A stretch of 64,000 bases of DNA from Liolophura sinensis. Taxonomy: Eukaryota > Mollusca > Polyplacophora > Chitonida > Chitonidae. The stretch covers positions 18,917,501-18,981,500 of the forward strand of contig NC_088303.1 in NCBI RefSeq assembly GCF_032854445.1, written 5' to 3'. Shown here piece by piece: positions 4,839 to 46,118 of the stretch (position 1 is the first letter of the stretch; each line of letters starts with the position of its first letter). Under the pieces are notes generated by a model. It saw nothing but the letters and a program-made list of their open reading frames with translations. It did no database searches and was not told the origin of the DNA. Made by a program: the position numbers and the translations under genes.

Positions 4839-7800
4839 ATGATATACCTGTCCAGAACCCTTCTTTTTCAAGAAATCCTCATTTTTGTGTGTCTTGGCTG
4901 TTTAAGAGCTAACTTAACAGAAGCAGACGGAGTGGTGGCGCTCAGTAAGGATCCGCCAGATCTTGACATTGCTAAACTGTCCCGACAAAAACGTGCATCG
5001 GGTACTGTGATTCCAATATCTATGGAAGAAAGGGAGGCTGGTGTATTACGCCACAATGAGTATAGGGCAAAGCAAAATGCTTCTAATATGGAATATATGG
5101 TTCGTATAATATTACGTGATTTATCACAGAACATTTAAGACTTGTCATTCTTTTTGATTTCGTCCTTGTTGACATATTTGGTTTACTACCTCTGTTGCAA
5201 AGCTTCGTTTTTTTTTAAATTTCCAATGCTTTTCTTGTAGACATGGAATTCTGAGCTTGCAAGAATGGCGGAGGAATACATTGGGAAATGTGTGTTTGAG
5301 CACAGTGACATGTTGAATAGAGATAAAGAATATGACTTCACCTATAAACGAGTTGGAGAGAATCTACATTACAACACAAAAGAGTTAAGCCTGGCCAAGG
5401 CCGTGGATGCCTGGTATATAGAAATCAATGACTACACGTACGAGTCGAACACGTGTGCTACAGGGAAAGTGTGCGGTCATTACACACAGGTATGTGTTCC
5501 TTTGTCCAAACTCATTTATATTTTTTAAATTGGGTTTTGCTTAATGCTACAATCAAAAATTCTTCCCCTATAGTCGTCAGTTTATGGATTGAGGAAATTG
5601 GTGTATCCAGCGTAAACCACCCACCTTTGGCAGGTTACTGACGAACTTTCCCCGATATGACGTACAAACACGCGCACACCATAACGGTGAACTGCAACGA
5701 CCGTAAAAGTGAGCAAGCGGCCCCAGAAGCGCCACCCATTGTCACCAAGACCTCATAAGCTGTGAGAGCGGAGTAATCTTCAAATCCCTTCAAAAATTTT
5801 TTGGTTTTTTTTTTTTTTGGTTTTTTTTTTCATGGCTTAATAACTTCAGGCTTCAATAAGAATGATAAAACTCTGTCCCTCCCGGGCTTCCGTACAATGG
5901 AAAGACCACTGAAAACTACCAATTATTTTGTTTTGAACTGAGTCACGTATATTCCGACGGATGTATTTCCTTTATTGACCGCGAGAATACTGTTACATGC
6001 CTCATGTAAAATTGCTTTACTTTCTATTTCAAATTCGGGTGAAATTCTTGTGAAATTTTCTAGTCTATAAGTTGTTTGAGTATAAATGAGTGCTGTTAGA
6101 GAATATACATGTCCATGACGCCATATCCACTGCATCAATGGTTCGACCAATGGTTCACGACTTTTTTACATGTATTCCTGATTATGTAGCGTGGAATTAC
6201 CATCATTCTCACACGTTCAGATCTCGTGTATTAGTGGTAACCAGACTTGGGATTAACACCGAGGATTAACACCGATCAGGAGACATATAGAATCATCTTT
6301 ATCCGTTTGTTTCTTTATCTTTATCTTTTACTTGCCAAAGTTCGGTCGTTTACTCCGGGTAGTCCGTATTCCGGCACCCATGCATAAATTGACTGCGTGG
6401 CATCTCATATACGTGAAATATTACTAAGTACAGCGTTAAACCGATCAAATAAGTAAATATGTAAATGTAATAAATGTCATTACAACGAAAGTAATAAATA
6501 AACACTCTTTTGTCTCGTACAAAAAATTGTGTTTGCGTACAGGTTGTTTGGGCAAAGTCGGAGATGGTGGGCTGCGCTAAAGTCATGTGTCCACTGCTAG
6601 AAGTTCCCTACAAAAAGAAGACGGTGAAGAATGCTGTATACACGGGATGTAATTACGGAGGACCGTATGTTAAGTTTTACTTATCCATTTATATTGAGTG
6701 GTGTTCAGTATGTATCAAGAAGTATTTACTTGCATGTGTCTGACGTCTGGTAGGTTTATGAATTGAAGAAAGCGGAGTGCCAGGAGGAACCACCTGAAGG
6801 CGATATATTCCTTGAAACATGATTCTTCTCAGAAGGCCTCCTTGCTACATGTACTCATCGAGTTTGTTTCCTTTTCCTGGTATTCATTTCGCCATTAGTT
6901 TATTCATTTACTTCTGTTTGATATGTTAGATAATGAATCACGCAGGGGATTGTTCTTATTAATATTAGTTTCCGCAATAGAATACAAATACAACATGTAG
7001 CTCAGGCCGCTGTATTATGCTTTAATGATTGGTATGTTTTTAATTTCCGGGCATCTTTTGTCGATATAAGATTCGAAACCCCACTCAAAATATCAAGTTT
7101 AAAAAGAATTCGTATAACCATATGCAAATGTTTATTAGAATAATTAAACGCAAGTGCTATAGAGTAAAGTGTAAATTATGAGTATCGTATTCATATGAAC
7201 AATTTTCATCAAGATGTTACTTTTGGTTTCGATATTGTAAAAGAAAAGTCATGCAATATTACACTATTTTAACTGGCCGATGGCGGCCAGGATTATGGTA
7301 GGAGGAAACCGTGCAGAGCCTGGAGGAAACTCGCGGCCATCCGCTGGTTGCAGCAACACCTTCTCAAGTATGGCCAGAGAGGGAGCCAGCACGAGCTTGA
7401 CTTGAACTCACAGCTACCTCATAGGTGAGAGGCGCCTGGGTCATTGCGCCTTGTTGTCGTGCTAATCCCCTCAGCTACGGAGGCCCGCTATATGTATTGT
7501 ATTTGACCTCTCATAGAACAGTTAATTACGCTGCTTGAGATTTTATTTCATACGATTTTCTCGCCTGTGGTGTGTTTTTCTGGGACAGAACATAATGTAC
7601 AATGCTCTCTCCAGCCTGTCTATGATCAGATGTCCAGTAGGAGGACATCACCCACTAACCGGATATCGTTAGCGCTTCAGTGGCATATTAGGGTCTAGAA
7701 CGTGTTTTACCAGATCACGACATAAAAGCGTAAAAAAGCCATTGAATGCGTTGCGTGACCCTTGGGTTTTCCTGCGCTTTTTACATATACCGTCAGAAGG

Positions 7801-10800
7801 TTGGCTATCTTGCTTTTGTGATGTCATGAAAAGGGAAGCATATTTTTGGTTTGCAGTAGTTTTCACAGCTCAATCCTTTGTGCACATAATACGTTCAGAT
7901 TACGATGAATTGTAGGAAAATAGAATTGTACTTTGAACAAACATAAAGCTACAATGAACAAAAAACTTCACATGTGGAGAAATGAATTATATTGAATACA
8001 AGGTAGTTAAAATGGACGAATGCCATAATGGCCTGGTCTCACCTGACGAATCCAACCATTTCAGTTGTGGTGAACCACGCGGGGTCCATGCCGGGTGCTC
8101 TTTCGAGGTCACGTGACCACAATTTTATTTGGCTGAGCACTAAGGCGTGTGAAGAAGTTGCTGGTGATTACAAAAAAAAAGTTAACAATCTTTGGCATGC
8201 TCCAAACTGTCCAGTGGATGTTGCACGTGTCATGAGATGCAGTAGACGGACAGGTAACACCCTGAGGGGCGCCTCAGTGACTCAGTTGGTAAGCGCGCTA
8301 GCGCAGCGTAATGACCCAGGAACCTCTCACCAATGCGGTCGCTGTGAGTTCAAGTCCAGCTCATGCTGGCTTCCTCTCCGGCCGTACGTGCGGATGGTCG
8401 TGGGTTTTCCCTGGGCTCTGGCCGGTTTTCTCCCACCGTAATACTGGCCGCCGTCGTATCAGTATATAATATTCTTGAGTACCGCGTAAAACACCAATGA
8501 AATAAATAAATAAATTATTTCATTACTTACTGAGGTTGTTTCTACACACGCCAATGATTTTTCACTGAGTTTTAGTTGATAACTATAACATCAATCAAAT
8601 AAATAAATCAAACAGTGAGGCCCTGTTTACGGTTTGTGTAACTCTCCAGAACATACCAAACCGCTTGCGCGCTGCCATTTTTTGTACCCGACGTGTTGGG
8701 CCGATTCTAACACAGATTAACTGCTATTAACGTCTACGCAGTGCACAATTTCAATTGCATTGGAATCAAATACGAAGGAATAGGGTTGTGTTCAGCGACG
8801 TATCACGTTTTACTTTGCGGTTTGCCGACGGGAGTGAACGTCATGCCTAGTGCTGCGTACAGGAAGTTGATCAATTTCGTGCTGGTGTTGAAGGTGCGCT
8901 TATGTCTTCTCGTAATTCGTGGGAACCTCATTGCAGTGGGATATCGTGACCAGGTTCTTGTTCCGGAGCTGGTGTCGTTCGTGGCTGCTCATGGTCCAGG
9001 CCTACTTGGCAATGCGACACACAGCTGTTTTCACACGAAATTGTCTGCAAAATGCTGGTATTGACGTCATGCGTGTCATGGAGTGGCCATCGAGATCGCC
9101 TGGCCTCGACCCCATCGTCTATTTGTTTATTTATTTGTTTATTTATTTTTATTTAGCACTATGGTAGGAGGACATCGGGCAGAGCCCGGGGAAAACCCAC
9201 GACCATCCGCAGGTTATTGGCAGACCTTCCCACGTACGGCCTGAGGGGATGCCAGCATGAGCTGGGCTTGAACTCACAGCGACCGCATTGGTGAGAGGCT
9301 CCTGGGTCATTACGCTGCGCTAGCGCGCTAACCAAGTGAGCCAAAGAAGCCCTTCCCATCGCCTATAAACCAAATTTATCCAGTAGAAACACACTTTGTT
9401 CCATGCATATTGGTATGTTTGGAACATAAAGTGACACATGAGAACTTTCTGTTTTTGTTCAGTATAGTTATGCAATGTCTGTTCATTTTAAAAATAAAAG
9501 ATAAAGAAGAACCAAACTACAAAATCGTTACGTTTGGAAATACTGTTGTTTTGCTTGGGCCAAATTTCGAATGAATGAAATCATGGTTTAACGACACATC
9601 ACCGAGTAATGTATGTATATATATACATGTAGCAGTGATTCTGTGGCGATATCAAACAGTTAAGGTGTTCAGTTGGCTCAGCCGGTTCTGACCTCAGGTT
9701 TTCACGGAGGAAGGTATGTATGTATGGAATATTGCAACAGTGAATGCATACTCCTTACAGCGCATGTGCCGCACTCCATGCTCGTCGTAGATCGCTTGCG
9801 CCACTAACACGAGCTTGATCTTTGGAGCCTGTGCGACGCATGTAAGCTTGCCTAGGCTTAGCTTCATCAAGCTAAGAGGAGTACTCGCGAGGAATTATTT
9901 AATTAGCATTCATCAATATGCATGTATTTGCTTGAAGGGTTGGTTTGAATCACGCTGTGCATACTTTATATGATAAAAGAATGCACGTGTATAAAAAAGC
10001 ATTGGAAGCAAAGGTCGAGACAGAGTTTTTTGTGTTTTCTCAATGTTTTCTGCTTTATCGCCGTGACTAAGGTGACCTCGACGTTATTTAAGATTTCTGT
10101 ACCAAAATGCGAGTGCTGGCAGTGATTTGAAACGAATGTAGAGAGCGATGCATGCACTATTGATCACCTGAATGATCATTTAAACGTCAACATTTTTTTT
10201 CCTTTTCAGGCATCTTGCTTTTCTGTCAATTCAGCTTTTGTGGTGTTACTTGATTGTTCAGTGTCGCTCATTTCATCTCCTTTTCAAATGACTTTAGTGG
10301 TAACATGGCTGCTGTTAAGCCCTTCCTACTGGGAGACCCGTGTTCAGCGTGTGATCAAAAGAGCTACCCCACTGACCATGGTTGTAAAATGGGCATGTGT
10401 TGTAAGTATTTATTTCAATTATCGGCATACCTCTCTACAGGGTGTCAGTTCTTGTATAGGAGAAGCTATACAATTGCTTTAGGCAATATCAAGCGTCTTT
10501 GATCTAAGACAACTGTATCCCCGGTTTGGTCATCAACCGACAAAAAACTGTTTGAATATTAAATCAAATCAGTAAATATACATAAGCGGACATATTTTCA
10601 TTAAAAATCCCTTCAGGTTTGGTTTTGGTCAAATAATTGTGCAATGTTTGCAGAAGAATTAGACCAATGTCTCCCATAACAAACAGCCGGCCCGGATAGC
10701 ACAGTTGGCAGAGCGTCCGCTTCGGGACCGGTAGATCCAGGATCAATCCTTGATCGAGTCACACCTTAAAAGAGGAAGTTGTAGCTTCCTCGCGTGGCGT

Positions 10801-12691
10801 TCAGCATGAAGGTTGATAGTTCAACGACTGGTTGACCCGTATCAGTATAATGGCTCGGGTGGGGCGGCTTACTTGCCTTGGGTAAGTCGTCTAAGTGAAG
10901 CAGCACTAAGTAAAAGAGCGGTGGAAATCCGTCCTGTAACAAGGAGGCACATTACACGTACATGCACCCTAATGATTCCTTCGCCGTCGTATGACTGAAA
11001 AATTGTTGAGTACGACGTTAAACCCCAAGCACTCACTCACTCCATAACAAACATAGATATTTATTAAAAAACCATCAACCTTGCAGTCAAATAAATAAAT
11101 AATTCATTACTATGTCGAAAAAGGATGCACAGTCAGTGTACGTTTTAACTATTCCCGGTATTAACCGGATGATTTTGATCTTAAAATAATTATGTAAGTA
11201 TTCTTGATTACTTGTAATCATTTTCCTTCATTTTAAGGTTAGGTTTGTGACATGGACACTTGACTAGTAAATGACAGATTGTTGTCAAACCATTCAGCAT
11301 GTTATTTATTTATTTATTTATTTAATATTTCTTGAATGGTGTTTTTTGCCGTGCTCAAATGTATTGTATTTCTATGATGGCTGTCAGATATATAAGCGCA
11401 GATCCTAGGAAAAACATCCACATTTGATCAGGCGTCTGATGGACCCTTTACAAGATGTTATGAATTTACGACTGAACAGTTGGTCTAAATTAGACTCTGC
11501 TGAGAACATGAATCAGATTAGATTTGTTTTACTGTGATAGATATAGAGACTGACGAGGAAGAAGGGGCAAACAGTGGTGTTACCGGGACAAACAGTGGTG
11601 TTACCGGGGCAAACAGTGGTGGTACCGGGACAAACAGTGGTGGTACCGGGGTAAACAGTGGTGGTACCGGGACAAACAGTGGTGGTACCGGGGTAAACAG
11701 TGGTGGTACCGGGACAAACAGTGGTGGTACCGGAACAAACGGTGGTGGTACCGGGACAAACGGTGGAGGTACCGGGACAAACGGTGGTGGTACCGGGACA
11801 AACAGTGGTGGTACCGGGACAAACGGTGGTGGTACCGGGACAAACAGTGGTGGTACCGGGACAAACAGTGGTGGTACCGGGACAAACGGTGGTGGTACCG
11901 GGACAAACGGTGGTGGTACCGGGACAAACAGTGGTGGTATCGGGGCAAACAGTGGTGGTACCGAGACAAACAGTGGTGGTACCGGGACAAACAGTGGTGG
12001 TACCGGGACAAACGGTGGTGGTACCGGGACAAACGGTGGTGGTACCGGGACAAACGGTGGTGGTACCGGGACAAACAGTGGTGGTACCGGGACAAACGGT
12101 GGTGGTACCGGGACAAACGGTGGTGGTACCGGGACAAACAGTGGTGGTACCGGGACAAACAGTGGTGGTACCGGGACAAACGGTGGTGGTACCGGGCCAA
12201 ACAGTGGTGTTACCGGGGCAAACGGTGGTGTTACCGGGGCAAACAGTGGTGGTACCGGGACAAACGGTGGTGTTACAGGGGCAAACAGTGGTGGTACCGG
12301 GACAAACGGTGGTGGTACCGGGCCAAACAGTGGTGTTACCGGGGCAAACGGTGGTGTTACCGGGGCAAACAGTGGTGGTACCGGGACAAACGGTGGTGTT
12401 ACAGGGGCAAACAGTGGTGTTACCGGGGCAAACAGTGGTGGTACCGGGACAAACGGTGGTGTTACAGGGGCAAACAGTGGTGGTACCGGGACAAACGGTG
12501 GTGGTACCGGGGCAAACGGTGGTGTTACCGGGGCAAACAGTGATGGTACCGGGACAAACGGTGGTGGAACAGGCACAGATACCGGTAGCGTAGACGGAGA
12601 TGGGAACGGAAATCCCGCTGGTTGTTTGCGGACCTTTAACTACCACATTGTGTTTCCCCTTACTGTATTGTACACTACATTGTCTCAGTGA
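4839..12691 (+). CDS. Secreted CAP-domain protein with 48 x 7-residue repeat tail (5 exons)
   Basis: Joined exons 4839-5099, 5241-5489, 6543-6664, 10298-10401 and 11541-12691 give 628 residues; phases 0,0,2,1 agree at every join. Residues 1-26 look like a signal peptide and a basic RQKR site ends at 52. The CAP (SCP/antigen-5/PR-1) domain follows: HNEYR at 72-76, a WNSELA stretch from 89, GEN at 126-128, WYIE at 145-148, GHYTQ at 166-170, then VVWA in exon 3. The usual tetrad is present (H72, E127, E148, H167). A YGGPGN turn and a Cys-rich hinge (CSAC, HGC, GMC) complete the CRISP/GLIPR-like unit. Residues 255-590 are 48 repeats of TNSGGTG type, and the end is a hydrophobic segment compatible with GPI attachment. 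The first four exons are convincing; the join to exon 5 rests on phase and an acceptor at 11540. The first donor (gttcgt) is weak. Ligand and function are unknown. Confidence 0.8.
5575..5790 (+). repeat. Dispersed repeat fragment in CAP intron 2
   Basis: The stretch ggcaggttactgacgaac with gtaaaccacccacc resembles 62680-62705 (gataaaccatcgac, ggcaagttactgacga) and the repeat at 30-260. It ends beside a T-rich run at 5796-5831. No coding capacity is seen. Confidence 0.5.
7270..7490 (-). repeat. tRNA-derived SINE, family A
   Basis: Reverse-strand copy: the forward strand reads gaggaaacc, ccatccgctggttg, then the complement of the tRNA-like head ending in ctcagctacggaggcc. It is diverged and lacks the AAAT tail. 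Confidence 0.8.
8265..8513 (+). repeat. tRNA-derived SINE, family A
   Basis: The tRNA-like head has an A-box-like ctcagttggtaagcg and a B-box-like gagttcaagtcc. It is followed by the body (cggatggtcgtgggttt, ctggccgccgtcgtat) and the 3' core aatattcttgagtaccgcg with an (AAAT)n tail. A 137-residue ORF spanning it is a by-product. Confidence 0.85.
8640..9117 (+). pseudogene. Tc1/mariner-type transposase remnant
   Basis: Two overlapping frames together match the C-terminal half of Tc1-like transposases. One frame gives a [13 protein letters not shown] stretch followed by HGPG; after a frameshift near 9015 the other gives LQNAGIDVM and SRSPGLDPI. These correspond to the family's GNLTA-Y-eVL, PHTA, LqnagI and W-a-SPDLNPIE blocks. 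The frameshift and missing catalytic context make it a dead copy. Its right part is interrupted by a SINE at 9118. Confidence 0.75.
9118..9354 (-). repeat. Family A SINE nested in the Tc1 remnant, with TSD
   Basis: This is a reverse-strand copy with the (ATTT)n complement of its tail at the left and the tRNA-like head at the right (gcgctagcgcgctaaccaag). It is bordered by the 7-bp direct repeat CCCATCG at 9111-9117 and 9355-9361. The insertion falls directly after the SPGLDPI codons of the Tc1 remnant, so it post-dates that element. Confidence 0.85.
10686..11041 (+). repeat. Full-length family B tRNA-derived SINE with 12-bp TSD
   Basis: The head reads as a tRNA-like sequence with A box tagcacagttggcagagcg and B box region gatccaggatcaatcc. 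The body includes gcgtggcgttcagcatgaag and aatggctcgggtggggcggc. The end is attgttgagtacgacgttaa followed by a (CACT)n tail. The target duplication CCATAACAAACA is perfect at 10674-10685 and 11042-11053. It lies in intron 4 of the CAP gene. The intact ends suggest a young insertion. Confidence 0.9.
11297..11365 (-). repeat. Family A SINE tail fragment
   Basis: The complement of the 3' core (tttcttgaatggtg, gccgtgctcaa) follows a (TTTA)n run that is the reversed tail. It lies about 180 bp upstream of CAP exon 5. Confidence 0.5.
11567..12574 (+). repeat. 21-bp coding minisatellite (48 units)
   Basis: The unit is 21 bp (acaaacagtggtggtaccggg type) and encodes TNSGGTG, with variants NGGGTG, NSGVTG and NGGVTG and an A/P swap before Asn. 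Forty-eight units keep one open frame, and most contain a GGTACC (KpnI) site. The 3' half is organised in larger blocks: the pattern starting with a P-N-S unit near 12196 recurs about 126 bp later near 12322. The unit has no stop in several frames, so long antisense ORFs also appear here; these are not separate genes. Confidence 0.95.
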
Positions 12692-22345: not shown

Positions 22346-22589
22346 AAGCAGGGAAATCCAGAAGTTCCCAGTCTAAGGCCGGAACTGAACCTGTTCCTGC
22401 ATATTTGCCATCAGTCAGCTATAAAGCCCCACTCCCCTGTGAGGATATGATAAGTGTCTATTTTGGCAAACAGAAATTTCTTTCAAAACGCATGTACAAA
22501 AATTACAAGATACAGGGTATTGAGTATTACTCTAGGTCACAGTTGATAACACTACGTCTGCTTATGAATTTTACACCATGCCCTTCGTG

Positions 22590-23575
22590 CTGATAACAGA
22601 CAGTTTTATTCTGTGGTCCTTGTGCTGACATCAAATCAGTTTTTACACCATGGTCTTTATGCTGATATCAAACACAGCGTAATTACGTTGTCCCCGCGCT
22701 GGCATGAAATCTGATTTACCCCCAATGTCTTTGTGCTGATATCAACCACACCTCAACTTAATTCTGTTCTCTTTATGCCGGCATAACATTAGATTTACAC
22801 AATAGTTCTAGTGTTGATATCAAACACAACCTAACTCTGTTGTCCTTGTGCGGACATCAAGTCAGGTTTGGAGCATTATCCTTGTGCTTATATCAAACAG
22901 CCTTATCTTGTCCTTAATTGTGCTGTTATCAAATCTGATTTACACCATGGTCCTTAAACATGCTGATATCAAACAAAACCTAATTCTGATGTCCTTGTGT
23001 TGGCATCAGAACAGATTTATACCATGGTCCTTTTGCTGATATCAAACACAGCTTTATTCTGTTGTCCTTATGCTGGCGTCAAATCTGATTTACACCGTGA
23101 TCTTCATCATGGTCTATTGGTGATATCAAACACGGGCTAATTCTGTTCTCAATGTGCTGTCATCAAATCAGTTTTACACCATGGTCCATTTGTTGAAATC
23201 AAACACAACCTAATTGTGATGTCCTTGTGTTGGCATGAGACCAGTTTTACACCATGGTCCTTGTGCTGATATCAAACAGGCCTTGTTCTCTTGTCCTTGT
23301 CATGAAATCAGTTTTACATCATGGTCCCTTTGTTGACATGGAATTGTGCTGATATCAAACACCACCTAATTCTGATGTCCTTGTGTTGGCATGAGACCAG
23401 TTGTACACCATGGTCCTTGTGCTGATATCAAACACCCCCTGATTATGTCGTCCTTATGCAGGAAGCAAACCTGATTACCATGGTCCTTAATTATGCTTTT
23501 ATCTGAAACACAATTTTGATGTCCTTGCGGTAACATCAAGTCAGATTCACACCTTGGTCCTTGGTTTTTGAGCTA
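22590..23575. repeat. Minisatellite, about 70-bp units, abutting the MATCAP stop codon
   Basis: Alternating half-units are ttgtgctgatatcaaacac with cctaattctgatgtcc, and ttgtgttggcatcaaatcag with tttacaccatggtcc. They repeat about 13 times with substantial divergence. The array ends within a few bases of the MATCAP stop (23579-23581), so it probably forms the 3' UTR. A minus-strand AATAAA at 23058-23053 within the array is a candidate polyadenylation signal. Confidence 0.9.
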
Positions 23576-23578
23576 GCA

Positions 23579-26500
23579 TCACACGCCAGCTAAGACCTCC
23601 TCGGTTAATCCATTTACTGTTGCCACTCTGTCCAAACACCTTTTGTAATTGTCATAGTCCCTCATAAAGCCTGGGATCCTGGTATTTCCCAAATCAGCCA
23701 GTTCCTTCAGTCTATCAACATCCTGGTATGCAATTTTTCCTAATGAGAGAAGTAACTGGAAATCTATTGAATTTCTGTGTTTAAGAAGTTCTAAGGCTCC
23801 ATCCAGATAAACCTGGTCCTTGCAAAACCCTCCTGAAAAGTTGAACAGCAAATTATGAGTGGAAAACAGGCAATATCCAAAAAAATGTATACTATACTTA
23901 ATAAGTTTCAGCATGTATTAGTTGATTTGCTGAAACACATCTGTTATGTTTCTTTCTGGGTGGATAAATGAACGAACTTTCTCTAGTGTAACATTTCATG
24001 CTGGTGGACGGAGAATGTGATGTGTGACCACACCACCTGCATGCAACTCCTAATGAGAGCTACATGACAGCCTTAAGAACAATAAATGCAACAGAAAACA
24101 AAGTCAATTCTCTGCCCAAGAATGAGACTGAACCCATATACATGTATATCCCATGCTACCAGTGAAAGACTAAAGCCTCAATGACTTGGCCTCTGCTCGC
24201 TCATCTTTTCCTGAGTTCATGTTCATGTGTTTAATTCAGTACCCCTGCATCGCCTGTTTATGTATTTAATACTGTGCATCCCCAGTTCATGTTAATGTCA
24301 TAATACAGCGCTCCTCAGTTCACGTTAATATCGTAATACAGCGCTCCTTAATTCATGTTCATATCATAATACAGCACTCCTCAGTTCTTCTTTATGTCAT
24401 AATACAGCTCTCCTCAGTTCATGTTCGTCATAATACAGCGCTCCTCAGTTCACGTTAATGTCATGATACAGCGCTCCTCAGTTCATGTTAATGTCATAAT
24501 ACAGTGCTCCTCAGTTAATCTTCATGTCATAATACAGCTCTCCTCAGTTCATGTTCAAGTCATAATACAGCGCTCCTCGTTTCACGTTAATGTCATTATT
24601 GGCGCTCCTCAGTTCATCTTCATTTCATAATACAGCGCTCAGTTCATGTTCATGTCATAATACAGCGCTCCTCAGTTTACTTTCATGTCATAACACAGCG
24701 CTCCTCAGTTTACCTTCATGTCATAATACAGCGCTCCCAAGTCCATATTCATGTCATAATACAGCGCAATTCATGTTAATGTCATAATACCGTACCCCTC
24801 AGTTCATGTTCATGTCATTATACAGCGCCCCTCAGTTCATGTTCATGTCATAATACAGCGCTCCACAGTTCATGCTAATGTCATAACACAGTGCTCCTAA
24901 ATTCATGTTCATGTCATAATACAGCCCTGCTCAGTTCATGTTAATGTCATAATACAGCGCTCTTCAGTTCATGTTAATGTCATAATATAGTGCTCCTCAG
25001 TTCATGTTCATGTCATAATATCTTATCAGTTTATGTTATGTTTATTACAGTACCCTCAGTTCGTTTTGACGTGTGTAATACAGTGCTCATTAGTTCATGC
25101 TGCTATGTTTAATACAGTGCTGATCAGTTCATATTATGGTTATAATAGTGCTCCTCAGTTCATATTGTTGTGGTTAATTTGGTTCTCCTCGGTTGATGTT
25201 GATATGTTCAATACAGTGCTTCCTCAGTCCATGTTGGTATGTTTAATACAGTGCTCTTCGGTTTATGTTGGTATGTTTAAGTGCTCTTCAGTTCATGGTG
25301 TTATGTTTAATACAATTCTAATCAGTTCGTGCTGATATGTTTATTACAGTGCCTGTCAGATCATGTCGATATGTTCAATACAGTGCTCTTCAGTTCATGT
25401 TGGTATGTTTAATACAACGCTCTTCAGTTCATGGTGCTATGTTGAATACAGTGCTCTTCAGTTCATGGTGCTACATGTATGTTTACTAGAGTACCCCTCA
25501 GTTTATACTGATATGTTTAATACACCGCTTCTTAGTTCATGTTGTTATGTTTATTAAAATTTATATCTGTGTAGATGTATGTTGCCGAGAAAGGCCATGC
25601 GATTTGATATAAAGCATAAACAATGTCTGCTTAGTTGACTTTAAAAATTGTAGAGTGTGAGCATACATATAGCAAGACATGCCATCCATCACACACAAAC
25701 CACGTGCATTTCCATGTGGCACTTGCAGCCAGGTGTAAGGTTTTGGAAAGTCTTTCAATCCCTGAGACATCCCTGATGTCTGTTCTAATGTCTACGGTAA
25801 ATTTAGAATTGCGAAGAATAGCTTATTCCATATGTGAATTTATATATTCCCTAATTATTTTAAATGTATCCTCGAAGATACCAATGATGCCGTATAACGT
25901 GGCATGTCATGTCAAGTAATAATGTTACCTCTGTTCCTACCCCTTGGAAGCCTCATTCAGTTCTCTCAGACATTATACTGAACTAAACTATATTCTTGAC
26001 AAACACACGAGAAAAAGAATGATTAAATTACTATCTAAGACTTCAGACAAAAACAGGAAGTTGGCAGCTGGTACATGTATATATCCTGCGGAGATTTTCA
26101 AACAGCTTTCCGCAATCATCTGTACGCCCGCTGGAATACCTACAAACCAGTCCTATCACATAACAGCAGTAATAATACAGTGCTTCTCAGTTCAGGTTGA
26201 TATGTTTAATGCCGTGCTTCACAAGTTCCTCTTGATATGCTCAATACCATGAATACAGCACTGTCTCAGTTCATGTTGATATGTTAAACACAGTGCTTCT
26301 TGCTTCATGTTGATATGTCTGATGCAGTGGTCCTCGGCTGGTGTTGATATATTTAATGCAGTGCTCCTCAGTTCATAATGGTATGTTTTAAACAGTGCTC
26401 CTCAGTTCATGTTGATTTGTTTAACACTGTGCTCATCAGTTTGTGTTGAAATGTTTAATACAGTGCTCCTCATTTCATATTGATGTGTTTAAAACAGTGT

Positions 26501-29500
26501 TCCTCAGTTCATGTTGATTTGTTTAACACTGTGCTCATCAGTTTGTGTTGATATGTTTAATAGTGCTCCTGTTTAACCCATGTTTACATGTTTACTGATG
26601 TCCTCCTAATTTGCCCATGTTGATATGTTAAATATAGTACCCCTCAGTTCATGTTGATATCTTTAATACAGTGCTTCCTCAGTGCTTGCTGATATGTTTA
26701 ATACAGTGCTCCTCAGTTCATCCTAATATGTTTAATACAGTGCTCAGCTCATGTTGATATGTTCAACACAGTGCTTCTCAGTTCAGGTTGATATGTTTAA
26801 TACAGTGCTCCTCAGTTCATCTTAATATGTTTAATACAGTGCTCCTCAGTTCAGGTTGATATGTTTAATACAGTGCTTCTCAGCTCATGTTGATATGTTT
26901 AATACACTGCTTCTCAGTTCAGGTTGATGTGTTTAATACAGTGCTTCTCAGTTCAGGTTGATATGTTTAATACAGTGTTTCTCAGTTCGGGTTGATATGT
27001 TTAATACAGTGCTTCTCAGTTCAGGTTGATATGTTCAATACAGTCCTTCTTTGTTCCTGCTGATATGTTTAACACAGTGCTTCTCAGTTCCTGTTTATAG
27101 GTTCAATACAGTGGCCTTTCTGATCATGATGAATGTTTATATATTAATCAGTTTCTATCAACTACTAATTCACAAACATTAAGCACTACCTCCTTGTACT
27201 CACCTGGAACTGACGTGTCTCCTTGGCCTCTCTTAGCCCGCATACAGTAATCCCATCTTACCTGGGCATCACTCACAAATTTACCCAAGTCTCGAAATAG
27301 ATCTTTGAATGAAAGATAGGCAGCCTTGTATGCTGTGTAGTAGAGAAGTGCTGACCTCCAGAGGCATGGGTCTTTCCTCAGGAGAACGCTGTGAAGAGAT
27401 GCTAGTCCTTCCTCAGTGGGGTTGAAGTGTTTCAAACTTAACTCCTTCCGCTTTTTCCAGTTGAACCAGATCTGTATGAAAACAAGATGAATGAAATTTA
27501 TGTGTAGAATAGAAATATTTCATCCAAAGGACTACTCTCACCAAAGACAATCTTCATGAAAGTTTTCACGACACTTTTAAAATATTCATTCGACAAATAA
27601 ACAGTATTTACTGAGGAGTATCATGCCACTAACATTAAAAGAATGTTTAGACGTGAATATAACCATCTATACATACTGCAATCATGGTTTATTTTCAAAC
27701 TGTTACTATGTATAAGGCCATATTGTTTATCATGTACACCTACAGTGTACATAGTCAATGACATCACAATGAATTTTCTCTATCAGTATAAACAAGGATT
27801 TCATGTCTGATTCACTTTAGCATGCACAGAAAAGAGAGTACAATTATATACAAATGTGTTCTTGTCAGCTGCAATGTTCCAATAACACCCCCTTCCTGTC
27901 CTCAGAGTATACATTTATATACAAATGTGTTTCTGTCAGCTGCAACGTTCCAATAACACCCCCTTCCAGTCCTCAGAGTATACATTTACATACAAATGCC
28001 TTCTTGTTAGCTGCAGCGTTCCAATAACACCCCTTCCTGTCCTCAGAGTATACATTTATATACAAATGCGTTTCTGTCAGCTGCAACGTTCCAATAACAC
28101 CCCCTTCCAGTCCTCAGAGTATACATTTACATACAAATGCCTTCTTGTTAGCTGCAGCGTTCCAATGACACCCCCTTCCTGTCCTCAGAGTATACATTTA
28201 TATACAAATGCGTTTCTGTCAGCTACAATATTCCAATGACACCCCTTCCAGTCCTCGGAGTATACATTCACATACAAATGCCTTCTTGTCAGCTGCAACG
28301 TTCCAATAACACCCCTTCCTGTCCTCAGAGTATACATTTATATACAAATGTGTTTCTGTCAGCTGCAACGTTCCAATAACACCCCCTTCCAGTCCTCAGA
28401 GTATACATTTACATACAAATGCCTTCTTGTCAGCTGCAGCGTTCCAATAACACCCCTTCCTGTCCTCAGAGTATACATTTATATACAAATGCGTTTGTGT
28501 CAGCTGCAACATTCCAATAACACCCCCTTCCAGTCCTCAGAGTATACATTCACATACAAATACCTTCTTGTCAGCTGCAACGTTCCAATAACACCCCCTT
28601 CCTGTCCTCAGAGCATACATTTATATACAAATGCATTTCTCTCAGCTGCAACGTTCCAATAACACCCCCTTCCTGTCCTCAGAGTATACATTCACATACA
28701 AATGCCTTCTTGTCAGCTGCAATGTTCTAATAATACCTCATTCCTGTCCTCAGAGTATACATTTATGCACAAATGCCTTCTTGTCAGCTGCAACGTTCCA
28801 ATGACACCCCTTCCTGTCCTCAGAGTATACATTTATGTACAAATGCCTTTTTGTCAGCTGCAACGTTCCAATAACACCCCCTTCCTGTCCTCAGAGCATA
28901 CATTTATATACAAATGCGTTTCTCTCAGCTGCAACGTTCCAATAACACCCCCTTCCTGTCCTCAGAGTATACATTCACATACAAATGCCTTCTTGTCAGC
29001 TGCAATGTTCTAATAATACCTCATTCCTGTCCTCAGAGTATACATTTATACACAAATGCCTTCTTGTCAGCTGCAACGTTCCAATGACACCCCTTCCTGT
29101 CCTCAGAGAATACATTTATGTACAAATGTCTTCTTGTCAGCTGCAACGTTCCAATAACACCCCCTTCCAGTCCTCGGAGTATACAATTATATACAAATGC
29201 CTTCTTGTCAGCTACAATATTCCAATAACACCCGCTTCCTCTCCTCAGAGTATACATTTATGTACAAATACCTTCTTGTCAACTGCAATGTTCTAACAAC
29301 ACCCACTTACTGTATCCAAAGTATACAATTATATACAAATGCCTTGCTGTCAGCTGCAACGTTCCAATAACACCTCCTTCCTGTCCTCAGAATATACAAT
29401 TATATACAAATGCCTTCTTGTCAGCTACAATATTCCAATAACACCCGCTTCCTCTCCTCAGAGTATACATTTATGTACAAATACCTTCTTGTCAACTGCA

Positions 29501-32500
29501 ATGTTCTAACAACACCCACTTACTGTATCCAAAGTATACAATTATATACAAATGCCTTGCTGTCAGCTGCAATGTTCCAATAACATCCCCTTCCTGTCCT
29601 CAGAGTATACATTTATATACAAATGCCTTCTTGTCAACTGCATTGTTCCAATAACACCCCCTTCCTGTCCTCCGAGTATACATTTATTTACAAATGCCTT
29701 CTTGTCAACTGCATTGTTCCAATAATACCCCCTTCCTGTCCTCCGAGTATACATTTATATACACATGCCTTCAGATGATCCAAATGGATGATTTATGGTA
29801 CTGAGTGACACAGACCTAACTAACCTGATGCTTGTTGTTACAGCTGCGTAAATAGTGGGTACCTGTAAATACAAAATAGTACAGTAAAAAATTAGATATT
29901 TTTTGACATGTTTGTGAATGACTGCACCAAACTGGTGATTTCTGGGATGTGGTCAGATCACTGCCCTTCTAATTACCCTAAATGACCACAAATTTTGTCA
30001 ATAATTTATATGCCTCTAAAAATGCACTTTTGTGGGAAAAATTTGAGATCATTTTAATAGGGTACTTGATCATCAGACAGACAGCCGTCCTATCTACACC
30101 TGTAACGCATTAATATCAGACTAACCATCCTATAATCAACAGATGCCAATTAACCTACCTGGACAATGTAAAGTTAGGATTGGACTGTTCTACATGTATA
30201 GCAATTCCAAGTTATGGTGATGCAATCAACACCATCAGACTTTCAATTTTCATGAGAATTGTTGTCAACAGGCTTCTCCTGTTCTTGTAGATAAATAAGA
30301 ATTTCTTCAAGAAAATAGTTGAAAAGTATTTTCAATAAAACTCCAGAATATTTCACAAACATAATGGCAACCAACAATTAGGTGGGAGAAAACTGGGGTT
30401 TTAACACACATGTTCAGTGTAAAATTGTACAACAAATGTTTATCACTTATCCTTTTTTGTTTTTAAATCCTTGTGATGTCATTGGTGGTCCCTTTCATTT
30501 TTGTTTTAATAATGTTTCTGTGGCATCAGATGTCAGCTAGGACATTCCAAACTTCAAGAAGACTCCACGGTATTTTTAGCAAATTTTAAACTGTCCTGGG
30601 GCCACTTTCACAAAGTGGCATACCACATGTATTTATTGTACATTTGTCGTACGATATTTTATACATCACTATTAACGTACCATTTTCCTATGTGTGCAAA
30701 GAGGCCCCAAATCTCCACAGCTTATTTCTAGCCAAATATAAGATATAAATTGCATATATACATGCATCAGAGGGTTAGCCATAAATGTAAAAGAGGGTGT
30801 CAAAGCATCCCATTTTGAGGCCATTTTGCCATAGTACGGTGTCCAGAATTTTTTTCTCTTATCTCTCCAGTGTTACAAGTGCTGAAAACAGGGTGTCCAA
30901 ACAGCACCAGTTTTCTATTTCTCTCGTCCACAGGTGGACAGGTAACTGGTTAAACCCTGACATGAGTACAAAATCACAGAAAAAAGTACACCTCATCACC
31001 AAGTATTTTAATACTCTGATAACTTTCAGTTTCAAATGTAAAATCTCTGCAGTTTACCTTTAACTGGAAAAATATGTGCATTGGATATTATCCAAAATGA
31101 TTTCTGTAAAAACCTTTACCTTAATAATTTGTTTGACAAAAAGGGAGAAAAAAACCCATACCAGCCTTATACTATATTTTTTCTGACAGGGACAGATGGT
31201 TACACCAAACAAATAATTATTTATAAGCATGGTCATATTTTTCTTTTTTTTAACACTATATTGTACTAACACTAATTGAAAATGTACCAATTTCATGTCG
31301 GAGGAGTCCTTCTACCCAGAATTCCCTTAAGTTGACAATACGGACATTGAGTGTAGCTTTGCCTCTGCCCTTTGTCATGGAAGCCCTCGAGAGTAAATCT
31401 TCAGAAAGATTCAATCGAATCTCATCTTCCAGGTCCTCTTGTCGAAGATAGCGTTTGATGATCGACACAATCTCAGGTCTATTTAAAATCTTTCCACCTG
31501 TCTTCTCCTCAAAATTTTCATAGTGGCCATGCTTTTCCAGAGCCCTTTCCATGATTAAAATTGCCTGCAAAATTATAGGAAGGGCTAATTCTTATATTTT
31601 TATGTACTAAACAAAGACATTTTTACAAAACAAAATTACTTACTGGCAATAATGTATGTATATGTTAAAAACAAAATAATATGTCCACTTAATATGTTTT
31701 GACCTGTTTTTACCCAGCAGATTAGTACAAACATGTATGAAAATACAGCCATAACTATCACGGACAACAATTACATAGACTATATACGTCCCAATGTATC
31801 ACTGATGTTTAATAGCTTTACAGCATGTATTAGGTGACTTTTATCTGGTATGTAACTCATAGTTATGTTTGCCGTATGAAAGCCATATATCAGACTTATT
31901 TTTTTCAGTTTTGTATGTGGCAAACCTTAATAATAATTACTGGTAGTACCTGAGGCAAATATTTATCACTTGGGGAGCTGAATCTTTCTAAGGCATCAAC
32001 GTCAGCTGGATTTCTGTATACAAACACTGGGTTGTAGCAAAATCTGGCCTGGAAGAAGCGTTCTTTTTCTGATTTCTCATTTTCAGGTCTGATAGCAGTT
32101 AACAGAGGGACTACTGGTTTCTTGCCCCCCTTTATGTTCAAAGGTTGAACTGAACAAGATTGCACATGGTCACTTGCTGCAGTATTATACCCTTGCTTAC
32201 CAACTAAACTGTTCTGGCCTGACTTCGTCTTACATGAAACATCATTATGGGAGACGTCCCAAAGAGATTGAGATGATGACAATGTGATATGTTTTAGCCG
32301 CACATGATTCACTGATGTTGCTCTTACGTTTAACTGACAGATTCGTTTTCTCACATTTGTTGATGTTGACAAATATGACGGGGTCAAACTGGCAGGGATA
32401 CATGTAGGTGTTACAGATATCTCTTTACCCAACACAGTAATATCACTGCTGACCTCTGCACTTCCAAGAGGCCTGGCGCGCACTTTCTTTTTTATATTTT

Positions 32501-40700: not shown

Positions 40701-41560
40701 TATGGCGTTGAACAAGAATAAAATAAATAAATAAATACATTTTATCATGACATTTGAAAACTGATGCCCTTTGTGCCCCGGTCTTTTTATGACTACCAAG
40801 CACCAATGAAATCATTCACATGTGACTCCTGTACGCAGCAAAAACTAATAGTTATATACATTGTTAAAATAAAAACGGCTAATTGACCATTCTAATAGAC
40901 ATGTCACGTGTTTTCTGTAAAACACCAATGTTTCGGAGAAAACGTTGGAAATGATTTATTGAAATTTGCAGCGTATTCCCCCACCCCATTTTTTGATGCA
41001 TTGCCAAAATGTTTGGAGTGTCTGGTATGTATTGATGTGTATTTTGAACCAACGAACTTCGATCGAAGGATACATAAGGTTTCCGATCTCCACTTTAGAT
41101 ATCTTTGTGTCGAAACATCCATCTGCACCATATGTTCACATTATCATTATTCACGTTTAAAAAAAACATATTGGCACATAGTCAACAGCCTGTGTTGTAA
41201 AATCGATTTATCTTGAAATGGAAACGTTGTAGAAAGTGCTTGGAAAAGCCACAATGGAATTACACAGCCTTCAGTTTTATACTGCTACCCTCTGCCTTTT
41301 CTGTAAACAAAGTCATTCTGTATTAAAGATCCCTTTTCATCTTCACCATCAAGACTATAATTATCAAAAAGCATGACAGAATTGCAGTAGAAATATTGAG
41401 GTCGTCAAGATGAGTTTTTGCGGAGTTGTATTGCTCGGCTAAAAAAAAACTCTTTCTGTATATATGTCTTTATGTTATTCCTATCATTCGTTGGCTGTCT
41501 GGAGGATTTATTTCTCATTTTTCATATACAATCATAACTTTACTTATATTTCACAAATAG
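37794..41560. other. Intergenic with SINE fragments
   Basis: Partial family A copies lie at 39530-39625 (minus), 40325-40425 (plus) and 40617-40738 (plus, variant with ggtttacccggtgcactgcg). G-rich runs lie at about 40461-40480. A Penelope-like fragment is at 39880-40070. The 102-residue ORF at 40908-41216 has no recognised similarity. No gene is recognised. Confidence 0.5.
39880..40070 (-). pseudogene. Penelope-like reverse transcriptase fragment
   Basis: A short minus-strand frame contains SFTKRYIDNLLPLNNPRI followed by TSYLNLHLYKD. It resembles the FxRYIDDLLxLNNP...sYLDLxL segment of invertebrate Penelope-like and related reverse transcriptases. The catalytic second Asp reads Asn (YIDN). 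Only this segment is recognisable. Confidence 0.5.
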
Positions 41561-43055: not shown

Positions 43056-45110
43056 ATACATTTAGCTCGTTAACGGCTGTGTTAAAAATGAGAAAATATC
43101 AATCGGATCTCCAACAATCCTAACAAAAATGGCAGCTAGGAGCGAGACAAACCCAGAATCCAGTATATCAAGGCAGATACAAAGTAAACACAACTGGAAC
43201 TGAGCCGAATCCTAGGCTGTCGATGGAAGTCTGCAATGTTTTAGCATTGGCACATCTTCATTTGATCAAGCCGGCGATGTCCGACATCATCTTTCTTACC
43301 ATTCACACTGCCTAATCAGGTTTCACTTTATACCCTAGTTATTGACGCTTACAGTTCAAAACAACAACATGGGATGTGTCTATTGTTACGACCCAAACTG
43401 CCTGTATTATAAAGAGATGGCTTGTTCGAAATACACGACAGTTTAGCCGCACAAAAAAGTAACCAAAACCAGCAGATTTTATTTTACAACAATTTATTAG
43501 CTTAACAAGAACAGATAATAAGACTTATACAAATATTAAGGTACTTAAGTTTAACAAGAAAGGATAGCAGTATCTATACAAATACTAAGGTACTTACGGT
43601 GTCAAGTCCAAACGGACGCATATATTCCACAATATATATACCACACAGGCATAAATGCTCAGAGGCAAATTCACAAGGTGGAAAATCCACAGTATAACTG
43701 AGTGTATGACGAAATATACACAAAAAATGCTCGGTGGAGATAGGATATAACAAAGCCAGAGGCTATAGAGACACTAAAATTCAGCACAAAAGGCCTACTA
43801 AAATAATACACAGCGAAAGCATCCAAACTCTCAATAATTCTTCCATCTCCGATCTCTGTTCTCTCCCTCTGGCCTGCTTTCATAGGTCTTATATAACCTC
43901 GTGGAATTGTCCAGAATAAGAAAATTCCTGAACACTTGATGTAAACAAACAGGCACTAAGTTCAGACAGGTATGCTAAGTTCAGACAGCACTCCCTGAAC
44001 TTAGCATATGTAAACAGTGGCAAGCTATATTTAGAAACTGACGGCAGTCGTGCACATAACACTGTAGTGAGAAGTGTGCGATGTGCGGAATATATTTATT
44101 TCACTCAAGACGTAAAAGTGCTAGCGCAAAAAAAAAAAATAATTTCTCGCACATGGACGTGTTAAGGATTATTATAGGGGGGAACGCTCATTTTGAAGCA
44201 AAATAACTTTGACAGAAATTAGTGGCGCAACAACAACAACATAGGCTACATCGATAGGTTGTTCTATCTCTCTCGTTATCACCGGTATTGCCTAATAGCA
44301 CAGAGACTTTCAGCTGCCTACTTGTTTTAGTAAAAGCACATCTATAACCGTCCACAGCACTGCTTACTGTTGTTATATAACGCTGTGTCAAGGAATAAAT
44401 CGGACCCGAGCTTACATGCATTTACATTTCGAAACAAGGAAAGACACAATTACAAAGGACGATCAGTGATGGGCTGAAAATGCCTTGGCGGAAGTATTTG
44501 GCCCGCATTGCCATTCTCTGTCAAAAGAATAGGTTTCTGGAGACTTTTATAGGTACACTAAAAGCAAAGACGAATACGAAGCGCATGGCAAGTAGGCCAA
44601 TCATCTTGCTGACAGGAAGATGATCATACTATCCCGGACAAAATTACACTAAAACTGGCCATGACAAACTAAGGCTACTTTAGACAGAAACGGCGCCAGA
44701 CAAGCATTTGATCTGACTTAATTTAATAAATGTTTATAACTGTTCACAATCATATCTCCACACATAGATGTACCTACGGGGGCGGTCATTTTCATGGCCG
44801 AAGAACACCATCGTGTCCAAAGTGAAACAATGATCTTCTACAAGTTACAGACGAGCCTTCTCATTTATAACATGCCAACTCGCACGTCATGCATATTGGT
44901 AGAAGACAAATGGTCTTCAACGAACGTAAGACTGCGCGACTGGTCCCACCCATATCCGTCACCGCACATTATCCTAGTACCTTATGAATAATAAGTGTCA
45001 AGGAACGTATACAAATCCTCTTTCCAAGAAAAGGATTGAAGTCTATGTAATATAAATTTATGGAAATAAATTAAATTTGAGACATTTTTTGCAGCTACAG
45101 AAGAACTGTT
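43056..45110. other. Intergenic, upstream of the epimerase
   Basis: No gene is recognised. A partial 60-bp direct duplication lies at about 43498-43600 (ttaacaagaa, tacaaatactaaggtactta). A perfect 14-bp inverted repeat is at 43971-44008. Just before the epimerase ATG, ttttttgcag at 45085-45094 could be the acceptor of a 5' UTR intron. Confidence 0.5.
43971..44008. repeat. Perfect 14-bp inverted repeat (hairpin)
   Basis: The arms tatgctaagttcag (43971-43984) and ctgaacttagcata (43995-44008) flank a 10-nt loop. A direct copy of ctaagttcagacag lies just upstream at 43956-43969. There is no T-run and no neighbouring gene end, so it is not called a terminator. Confidence 0.8.
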
Positions 45111-46118
45111 ATGGAATCAAATGAGAAATGCCTGCCAGGACGCAGCGGTGAGAATGGGCATGACATGGGAAGGAGCATTGGGCATGTTCTGGTCACGGGA
45201 GGGGGTGGCTACCTGGGCACCACGCTTGTACCCATGCTCCTAGAGCACGGCTACGAGGTCACCATATTCGACGTGTTCTTGTGGGGAGTGACTTACTCCC
45301 TTCCGTACGCCGACCATCCCAAGTTCCATATCGTAAAGGGGGATGTCCGGGACAGAGATCAGCTTGAGATTGCTATGGAAGGAAAAGATGGCGTCGTGCA
45401 CTTGGCGGCAATAGTGGGCTATCCAGCCTGTGACCGCGATAAAGAGTCAGCGTACCAAATCAACGTGATCGGCACGAAAAACGTGACGGAACTGTTAAAG
45501 TCCTCGCAGAAGTTGGTGTACGCGTCGTCTGGATCGTGCTATGGCTCCGTAGAAGGCGTGTGCACGGAAGACACCCCGATTAGCCCGCTGACGCTGTATG
45601 GCAGCACTAAAGCAGAGGGGGAACGGCTGTGTGTTCAGGTGGGTGGTGTGGCTCTGAGACTGGCAACTGTGTTCGGCGTATCCCCTAGGATAAGACTGGA
45701 CCTACTCATCAACGACTTTACTCAGAGAGCACTGTGTGAGGGAAAACTTGAGGTTTATCAAGGCAACTTCCGGCGCACCTTTCTGCACGTGAAGGACGCA
45801 GCGCGTGCGTTCATGTTTGCTCTACTCAATTACAAAGCGATGAAAAGCAAGGCTTACAATGTTGGAGACGAGCGTATGAATATGACGAAATCCGATGTCG
45901 CCATTGCCATTCAGAAGCTGGTAAAAGACTGCACAGTCACTGAGACCGTTGGAGAAGACTTGGACAAGAGAAACTATGAAGTATCGTACAACATGATAAA
46001 GAGCCTGGGGTTTACATCCACCATATCGGTGGAGGAAGGTATTCAACATCTCATTAAAGTCTTGCCGTATATGAACAGTTCGGAAATATCGCGTGCTCGT
46101 AACTTTTGGCAAATGTGA
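45111..46118 (+). CDS. NAD-dependent epimerase/dehydratase (extended SDR), intronless
   Basis: A single 335-residue open frame, with an in-frame TGA at 45078-45080 upstream of the chosen ATG. It has the extended short-chain dehydrogenase plan: Rossmann motif TGGGGYLG at 29-36, acidic Asp54 at the end of the second strand, HLAAIVGYPACD at 97-108 and YASSGSCYG at 137-145. The catalytic YxxxK is Tyr163-Lys167, and FLHVKDAARA follows in the sugar-binding half. Such enzymes epimerise, reduce or dehydrate nucleotide sugars; the substrate cannot be read from sequence. Length matches bacterial homologues (about 300-340). The gene is clearly richer in G+C than its AT-rich surroundings, and the VGYPACD variant is, as I recall, common in bacterial members. 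A transfer from bacteria or an old retrocopy are both possible. No signal peptide or membrane segment, so probably cytosolic. Confidence 0.9.
   Translation: MESNEKCLPGRSGENGHDMGRSIGHVLVTGGGGYLGTTLVPMLLEHGYEVTIFDVFLWGVTYSLPYADHPKFHIVKGDVRDRDQLEIAMEGKDGVVHLAAIVGYPACDRDKESAYQINVIGTKNVTELLKSSQKLVYASSGSCYGSVEGVCTEDTPISPLTLYGSTKAEGERLCVQVGGVALRLATVFGVSPRIRLDLLINDFTQRALCEGKLEVYQGNFRRTFLHVKDAARAFMFALLNYKAMKSKAYNVGDERMNMTKSDVAIAIQKLVKDCTVTETVGEDLDKRNYEVSYNMIKSLGFTSTISVEEGIQHLIKVLPYMNSSEISRARNFWQM

Follow-up and report, generated by a model that had tools for sequence, protein, structure and literature searches.

The architecture in which a CAP head is followed by a stalk and a membrane anchor is already known. 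In the yeast protein Pry3 a CAP domain is followed by a Ser/Thr-rich stretch of more than 600 residues and then by a GPI site; inhibition of mating by Pry3 requires the head and the GPI site but not the Ser/Thr region, and mutations in conserved residues of the cavity weaken that inhibition (PMC7340583). HrUrabin, the ascidian Urabin, is described as a GPI-anchored CAP protein that binds an egg-coat protein (PMC9265791), mouse GLIPR1L1 is described as a sperm CAP protein located in lipid rafts (PMC6824042), and PI16 is termed 'GPI-anchored peptidase inhibitor 16' in the title of a paper (PMC7541153). In Sclerotinia, a coding minisatellite gives SsGsr1, a GPI-type surface protein, Gly-rich tandem repeats of variable copy number (PMC10269696). 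The papers on Pry3, Urabin, GLIPR1L1 and the fungal Gly-rich repeats were the nearest that we found in the literature, where passages on CAP proteins call their mode of action elusive or poorly understood. Judged by title or by the start of the abstract, none of the papers listed by searches of the open literature describes a Gly/Thr/Asn heptad repeat on a CAP protein.

The gene described here lies in a stretch of 64,000 nucleotides of the genome of the chiton Liolophura sinensis, which is referred to as the window. Five exons join into a sequence of 1887 nt that encodes 628 residues and has a single stop, at its end, with GT-AG borders at all four introns (Table 1), and this model is well supported as an animal CAP protein gene, with GLIPR1 as the nearest protein among solved structures. 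The reading that we favour, and to which we give about an even chance, is that it encodes a CAP head on a flexible Gly/Thr/Asn stalk, that the stalk comes from a predicted minisatellite exon, and that the protein is likely to be tethered to the cell surface by GPI. The exon pairs 6663/10402, 6664/10404 and 6666/10402 are alternative ends of exons 3 and 4 that also yield a frame with a single stop; the pair 6664/10401 has GT donors on both sides, and in it a single base of exon 4 follows the codon of C245, the last cysteine of the hinge. The start of the protein is signal-like, with its best hydrophobic 12-mer at residue 8, and it is followed by an RQKR site, in agreement with the signal peptide and the processing site that an earlier note on this DNA had claimed.

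Table 1. Features of the CAP gene model and of its two neighbouring copies. Positions are those of the window unless a piece outside it is named.
Feature	Position	Strand	Remarks
Exon 1	4839..5099	+	start codon, signal peptide, RQKR site, start of CAP domain; donor at 5100
RQKR furin-like processing site, residues 49-52	4983..4994	+	from the sequence; RHKR at the matching place in P0068
Exon 2	5241..5489	+	CAP core with H108, E127, E148, H167
Exon 3	6543..6664	+	VVWAKS to CNYGGP of CAP domain; both flanking intron positions common to neighbours A and B
Exon 4	10298..10401	+	GN..., four-cysteine hinge (C226, C229, C240, C245); phase-1 donor GTAAGT
Predicted exon 5	11541..12691	+	YIETDEEE, array, unique C-terminal tail, stop; sole long frame among filtered in-phase acceptors
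48 x 21 bp units, heptad GTN[S/G]G[G/V]T, residues 254-589	11564..12571	+	
Hydrophobic core (11 residues) of possible GPI signal, residues 615-625	12647..12679	+	
Exons 3-4 of neighbours A and B	L021:3752-3052 and L019:4552-3826	minus	upstream of window; exon 3 starts at L021:3752 (A) and L019:4552 (B)

The search against CAP families for which the earlier note had called matched Pfam CAP (PF00188) at residues 71-189, where it scored 68 bits and the cut-off is 21.1 (E 1.7e-18), and 19 distinct PDB sequences matched the protein, the best being GLIPR1 (3q2r) over residues 69-240 at E 3.8e-30. The head was aligned in 15 rows, consisting of the CAP protein and 14 relatives that the analyst picked out of 111. 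Every row has H108, E148 and H167; at position 127 either Glu or Gln occurs, with Gln in six of the 14 relatives as counted by eye. We take H108, E127, E148 and H167 to be the His/Glu/Glu/His tetrad of CAP proteins, which is of the metal-binding type, and the tetrad is complete, as had been claimed. Ten cysteines are likewise invariant, the four of the hinge among them, and the short Cys hinge proposed from the sequence therefore stands. A CRISP proper is defined by a Cys-rich ion-channel regulatory domain beyond the hinge; that domain is absent from the model, in which a single Cys follows C245. The two best-scoring relatives come from a land snail and an oyster and the next three from birds and reptiles, an order that makes a molluscan source likely. 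An Arg-x-Lys/Arg-Arg site lies N-terminal of the CAP domain in at least seven of the 14 relatives (by eye), so the RQKR site appears to be a common feature of the family. One relative, P0068, is an unspliced frame of 164 residues that agrees with exon 1 at 61 of 88 residues before running into the intron, where its first nine codons give residues identical to those of intron 1 in the window; the gene, with the same first donor, therefore exists in a related genome. Across window 4839-5240 this degree of identity in exon 1 is seen despite an intron 1 start that is much the same in both, a hint of rapid change in exon 1.

Two further CAP copies, A and B, were found in the 264 kb around the gene, both upstream and on the opposite strand. 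Their identity to exon 3 of the gene is 49% over 41 residues in A and 55% over 40 residues in B, and they share with it a phase-0 intron after HYTQ (HYKQ in A), a phase-2 intron before GN and a phase-1 donor directly after the last hinge cysteine. Both have an extra intron within the stretch that matches exon 2 of the window gene, and both have apparent frame breaks in the second CAP exon, so they may be decaying copies. Because the phase-1 donor after the hinge is common to all three, a separate tail exon is to be expected; a search for one in A or B found none that could be assigned. A hinge exon that requires a separate tail exon after it thus seems, from these shared borders, to predate the window gene. 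A search for the CAP family in the genome gave at least ten six-frame matches, one of which is exon 2 of the gene, and the other seven CAP loci returned include none as close as A and B.

The stalk depends on the use of exon 5. A screen of the 9 kb after exon 4, with a pyrimidine filter of 0.6 and at least 18 residues required in phase, passed 19 acceptors. The acceptor at 11541 alone opens a long frame, of 383 residues against 68 for the next longest, and it is the sole one of the 19 whose frame passes a crude rule for GPI signals. Its phase and an 8-codon lead-in to the array fit exon 4, and of the three plus-strand frames only that continued from exon 4 stays free of stops through all 48 units, since variants at three sites introduce stops into the others. 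We conclude that exon 5 is probably used, as predicted. The opposing view is that the array is a non-coding minisatellite that is open by chance, and that exon 4 joins another last exon or stops in intron 4. This we think unlikely, given the fit of acceptor, phase and lead-in and the short products of the other listed acceptors, but it draws on several observations. The pyrimidine score at 11541 is weak (0.62, where the filter limit is 0.6). The surrounding genome is rich in minisatellites, the 264 kb containing 19 arrays that are 400 bp or longer, and the array has three open frames whether it is coding or not: frames +0, -0 and -1 contain no stops, +1 contains two, +2 one and -2 eleven. An open frame is weak evidence of coding here because a 21-bp unit that lacks stops is open in several frames, three of the six in this case, and we rejected the argument that openness proves coding. 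The array of the CAP gene is nevertheless alone among the 19 in having three open frames; two of the remaining 18 have a single one. There is also no sign of selection on its residues. Relative to the array consensus, 12 kinds of change consist of eight that alter a residue and four that are silent, with no constraint by codon position, and selection within the array was rejected as evidence of coding since this is near the chance expectation of about three in four altering (the analyst's estimate). Downstream, no AATAAA or ATTAAA occurs until 13579, a long way from the stop, and the C-terminal tail, used as a protein query, matched none of 21 candidates at E up to 10.

The array runs through its 48 units of 21 bp without indels, and Tandem Repeats Finder reports 47.8 copies with 91% matches and 0% indels. 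The 48 heptads that had been described are thus present; the array is not perfect, for it contains 15 different 21-mers and 12 different heptads. Gly at position 1, Asn at 3, Gly at 5 and Thr at 7 are nearly fixed, the Asn being present in every one of the 48 units, and the remaining positions are mostly Thr, Ala, Val or Pro at 2, Ser or Gly at 4 and Gly or Val at 6. When the units are written as a string of letters, the four successive units HDCE recur six units later and the greatest number of identical unit pairs is found at a lag of six (12 of 42); the six-unit recurrence is, on this evidence from the unit string, a trace of whole-unit duplication. Elsewhere in the 264 kb the repeat unit has one 12-base match. 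The 336 residues of the array are made up of 152 Gly, 78 Thr, 48 Asn, 27 Ser, 13 Ala, 13 Val, 2 Pro and one each of Glu, Ile and Asp. As had been claimed, the heptads hold no N-x-S/T sequon; two are found outside them, at residues 25 and 80. With 105 Thr or Ser residues, 152 Gly and only 2 Pro the composition is not the Pro/Thr/Ser-rich one of mucins, so heavy O-glycosylation of the stalk, as had been suggested, is a guess.

Exon 5 was modelled on its own by single-sequence AlphaFold, a procedure whose models are often poor and whose low confidence is no proof of disorder. The model has a mean pLDDT of 29.7 and one helix, in the hydrophobic C-terminal end; 13 of its 382 residues reach pLDDT 50-70, nearly all of them in the hydrophobic core. 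It fits a stalk that is disordered. It also bears on a different view of the tail, in which the heptads form a regular beta-roll with rows of T-G-T, binding ice or a mineral for example, and the tail is the working part of the protein with the CAP head as its passenger. Beta-rolls built from heptad repeats occur in a grass ice-binding protein, and nearly all borders between units here read Thr-Gly-Thr/Ala/Val/Pro, with the invariant Asn at position 3. We consider such a roll very improbable, however, because Gly accounts for almost half of the array, which offers no hydrophobic core, and because the model contains no strands, its pLDDT taken block by block over the array being about 24-37.

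At the C-terminus a GPI signal is predicted as possible. The rule that was applied is crude, requiring a site of small residues, a spacer and an uncharged hydrophobic core of 11 residues near the end; the tail passes it with the site NPA and a core of mean 1.66. The rule also passes 61 of 2000 shuffles of the tail, 33 of the 592 unselected ORF ends in the window and 10 of 111 homologues. Eleven homologues were examined singly. Seven pass, six of them PI16s, and four fail, three of these (P0001, P0003 and P0011) with strongly hydrophobic ends, so GPI does not necessarily follow from a hydrophobic end. The tail of the window protein contains Pro, and its core has a lower mean than the cores of the six PI16 tails that pass (2.12-2.96). 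The best hydrophobic 12-mer at the C-terminus has a mean of 1.84, which is equalled by 61 of the 592 unselected ORF ends; the hydrophobic C-terminus from which a possible GPI tail had been proposed is thus real but modest. It may be that exon 5 is coding and carries no GPI signal, the protein then being secreted and its Gly-rich tail embedding the CAP head in matrix or mucus. The modest end of the protein and the failure of homologues with strongly hydrophobic ends speak for this possibility, to which we give a minor share of our confidence, about as much as to a non-coding array. The rarity with which shuffles of the same tail pass the rule argues for the tether instead, as does the finding that 11 of 17 relatives, the analyst's choice from the 111, have ends at least as hydrophobic.

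The tethered CAP protein can be compared with the known systems in detail. Pry3 resembles it in having a CAP head, a low-complexity tail and GPI attachment and differs in that its tail is Ser/Thr-rich rather than Gly/Thr/Asn. To our knowledge Pry3 lacks the animal-type hinge. Urabin, by its published description, is like the predicted protein an invertebrate GPI-anchored CAP protein, and the GLIPR1-type proteins P0003 and P0022 are not among the 18 best repeat-bearing tails of the 112 sequences compared. The closest parallel is with PI16, for example that of Pelodiscus sinensis (P0033), Orycteropus (P0023) or Tenrec (P0012), in which a CAP domain and hinge are followed by a long repetitive tail, as here, where 383 residues encoded by predicted exon 5 follow the hinge. 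The softshell turtle PI16, P0033, has a near-perfect array of a 16-residue unit at residues 205-465 and an end that passes the GPI rule, and its period score of 225 (shuffles at most 7) compares with 215 (shuffles at most 6) in the window protein. At the level of architecture this array answers the earlier note, whose author knew of no CAP protein with a long perfect heptad array of this type. Tandem repeats well above shuffles, of several kinds of unit, are present in six of ten PI16 or PI16-like matches. The PI16 tails compared are rich in Pro/Thr/Ser or Pro/Glu/Asn, in contrast to the Gly/Thr/Asn heptads of the window protein. When the 112 sequences were ranked by their repeat tails, such a heptad occurred among the best 18 in the window protein alone; within that set the unit is new. 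A tree of CAP domains with 38 rows places the window protein outside the PI16 group, on a branch so long (1.93) and among forks so weak (93/68) that its place is unsure; orthology to PI16 was considered and rejected, as the tree does not resolve the long branch. SsGsr1 differs in being fungal and in having an 11-residue unit, and the passages of its report that are cited here mention no CAP head. Pry3 and PI16 are precedents that make the display of a CAP head on a stalk, as first suggested from the sequence, plausible, with exon 5 and the GPI anchor still as predictions.

Under the favoured reading, that of a GPI-tethered head on a flexible stalk, the pro-segment would be removed by cleavage at RQKR, the C-terminal tail would be exchanged for GPI, and the stalk would remain unfolded and serve as a spacer. 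The head may act via its conserved cavity by binding a lipid, a metal or a partner protein, by analogy with the Pry3 head and its need for cavity residues. The array probably gains and loses whole 21-bp units, and the length of the stalk is therefore probably variable. Use of exon 5 would mean that a minisatellite with an unusual Gly/Thr/Asn unit, filling a whole exon, forms the stalk, and this would offer a direct test of whether the distance from head to membrane matters in CAP proteins. CAP proteins that are distant from one another have repeat stalks of differing sequence at one position, after the hinge: the unit is a Thr/Pro 16-mer in turtle PI16, differs again in several mammalian PI16s and is the Gly/Thr/Asn heptad in the window gene. 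We suggest, tentatively, that tethered CAP proteins repeatedly gain a tail exon that grows by in-frame expansion of a minisatellite, the stalk being a fast-changing and possibly polymorphic ruler for the distance between head and membrane.

The surroundings of the gene contain other features. Introns, elements that the analyst read as SINE-like and the many minisatellites of the window are in keeping with an animal genome. Scans for tRNA genes and Rfam families found none. Dense long minisatellites with units of 33-73 bp lie at window 22570-29772 and at L011:6-3102, the latter with 94 copies of a 33-bp unit; four window arrays of 22570-29772 that were tested are closed in all six frames. At window 40899-41216 (+) there is a weak match to the Pfam c-SKI SMAD-binding domain, below the cut-off (E 2.4e-4, 21.6 bits against 25), and this segment is perhaps an exon of a SKI-like gene. 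Window 45081-46118 (+) holds an intact, intron-free frame of 345 residues for an NAD-dependent epimerase (Pfam Epimerase, E 8.4e-40), whose best solved match is the putative sugar-nucleotide epimerase/dehydratase 6vo6 (E 3.1e-64) and which may have been horizontally acquired or retroposed.
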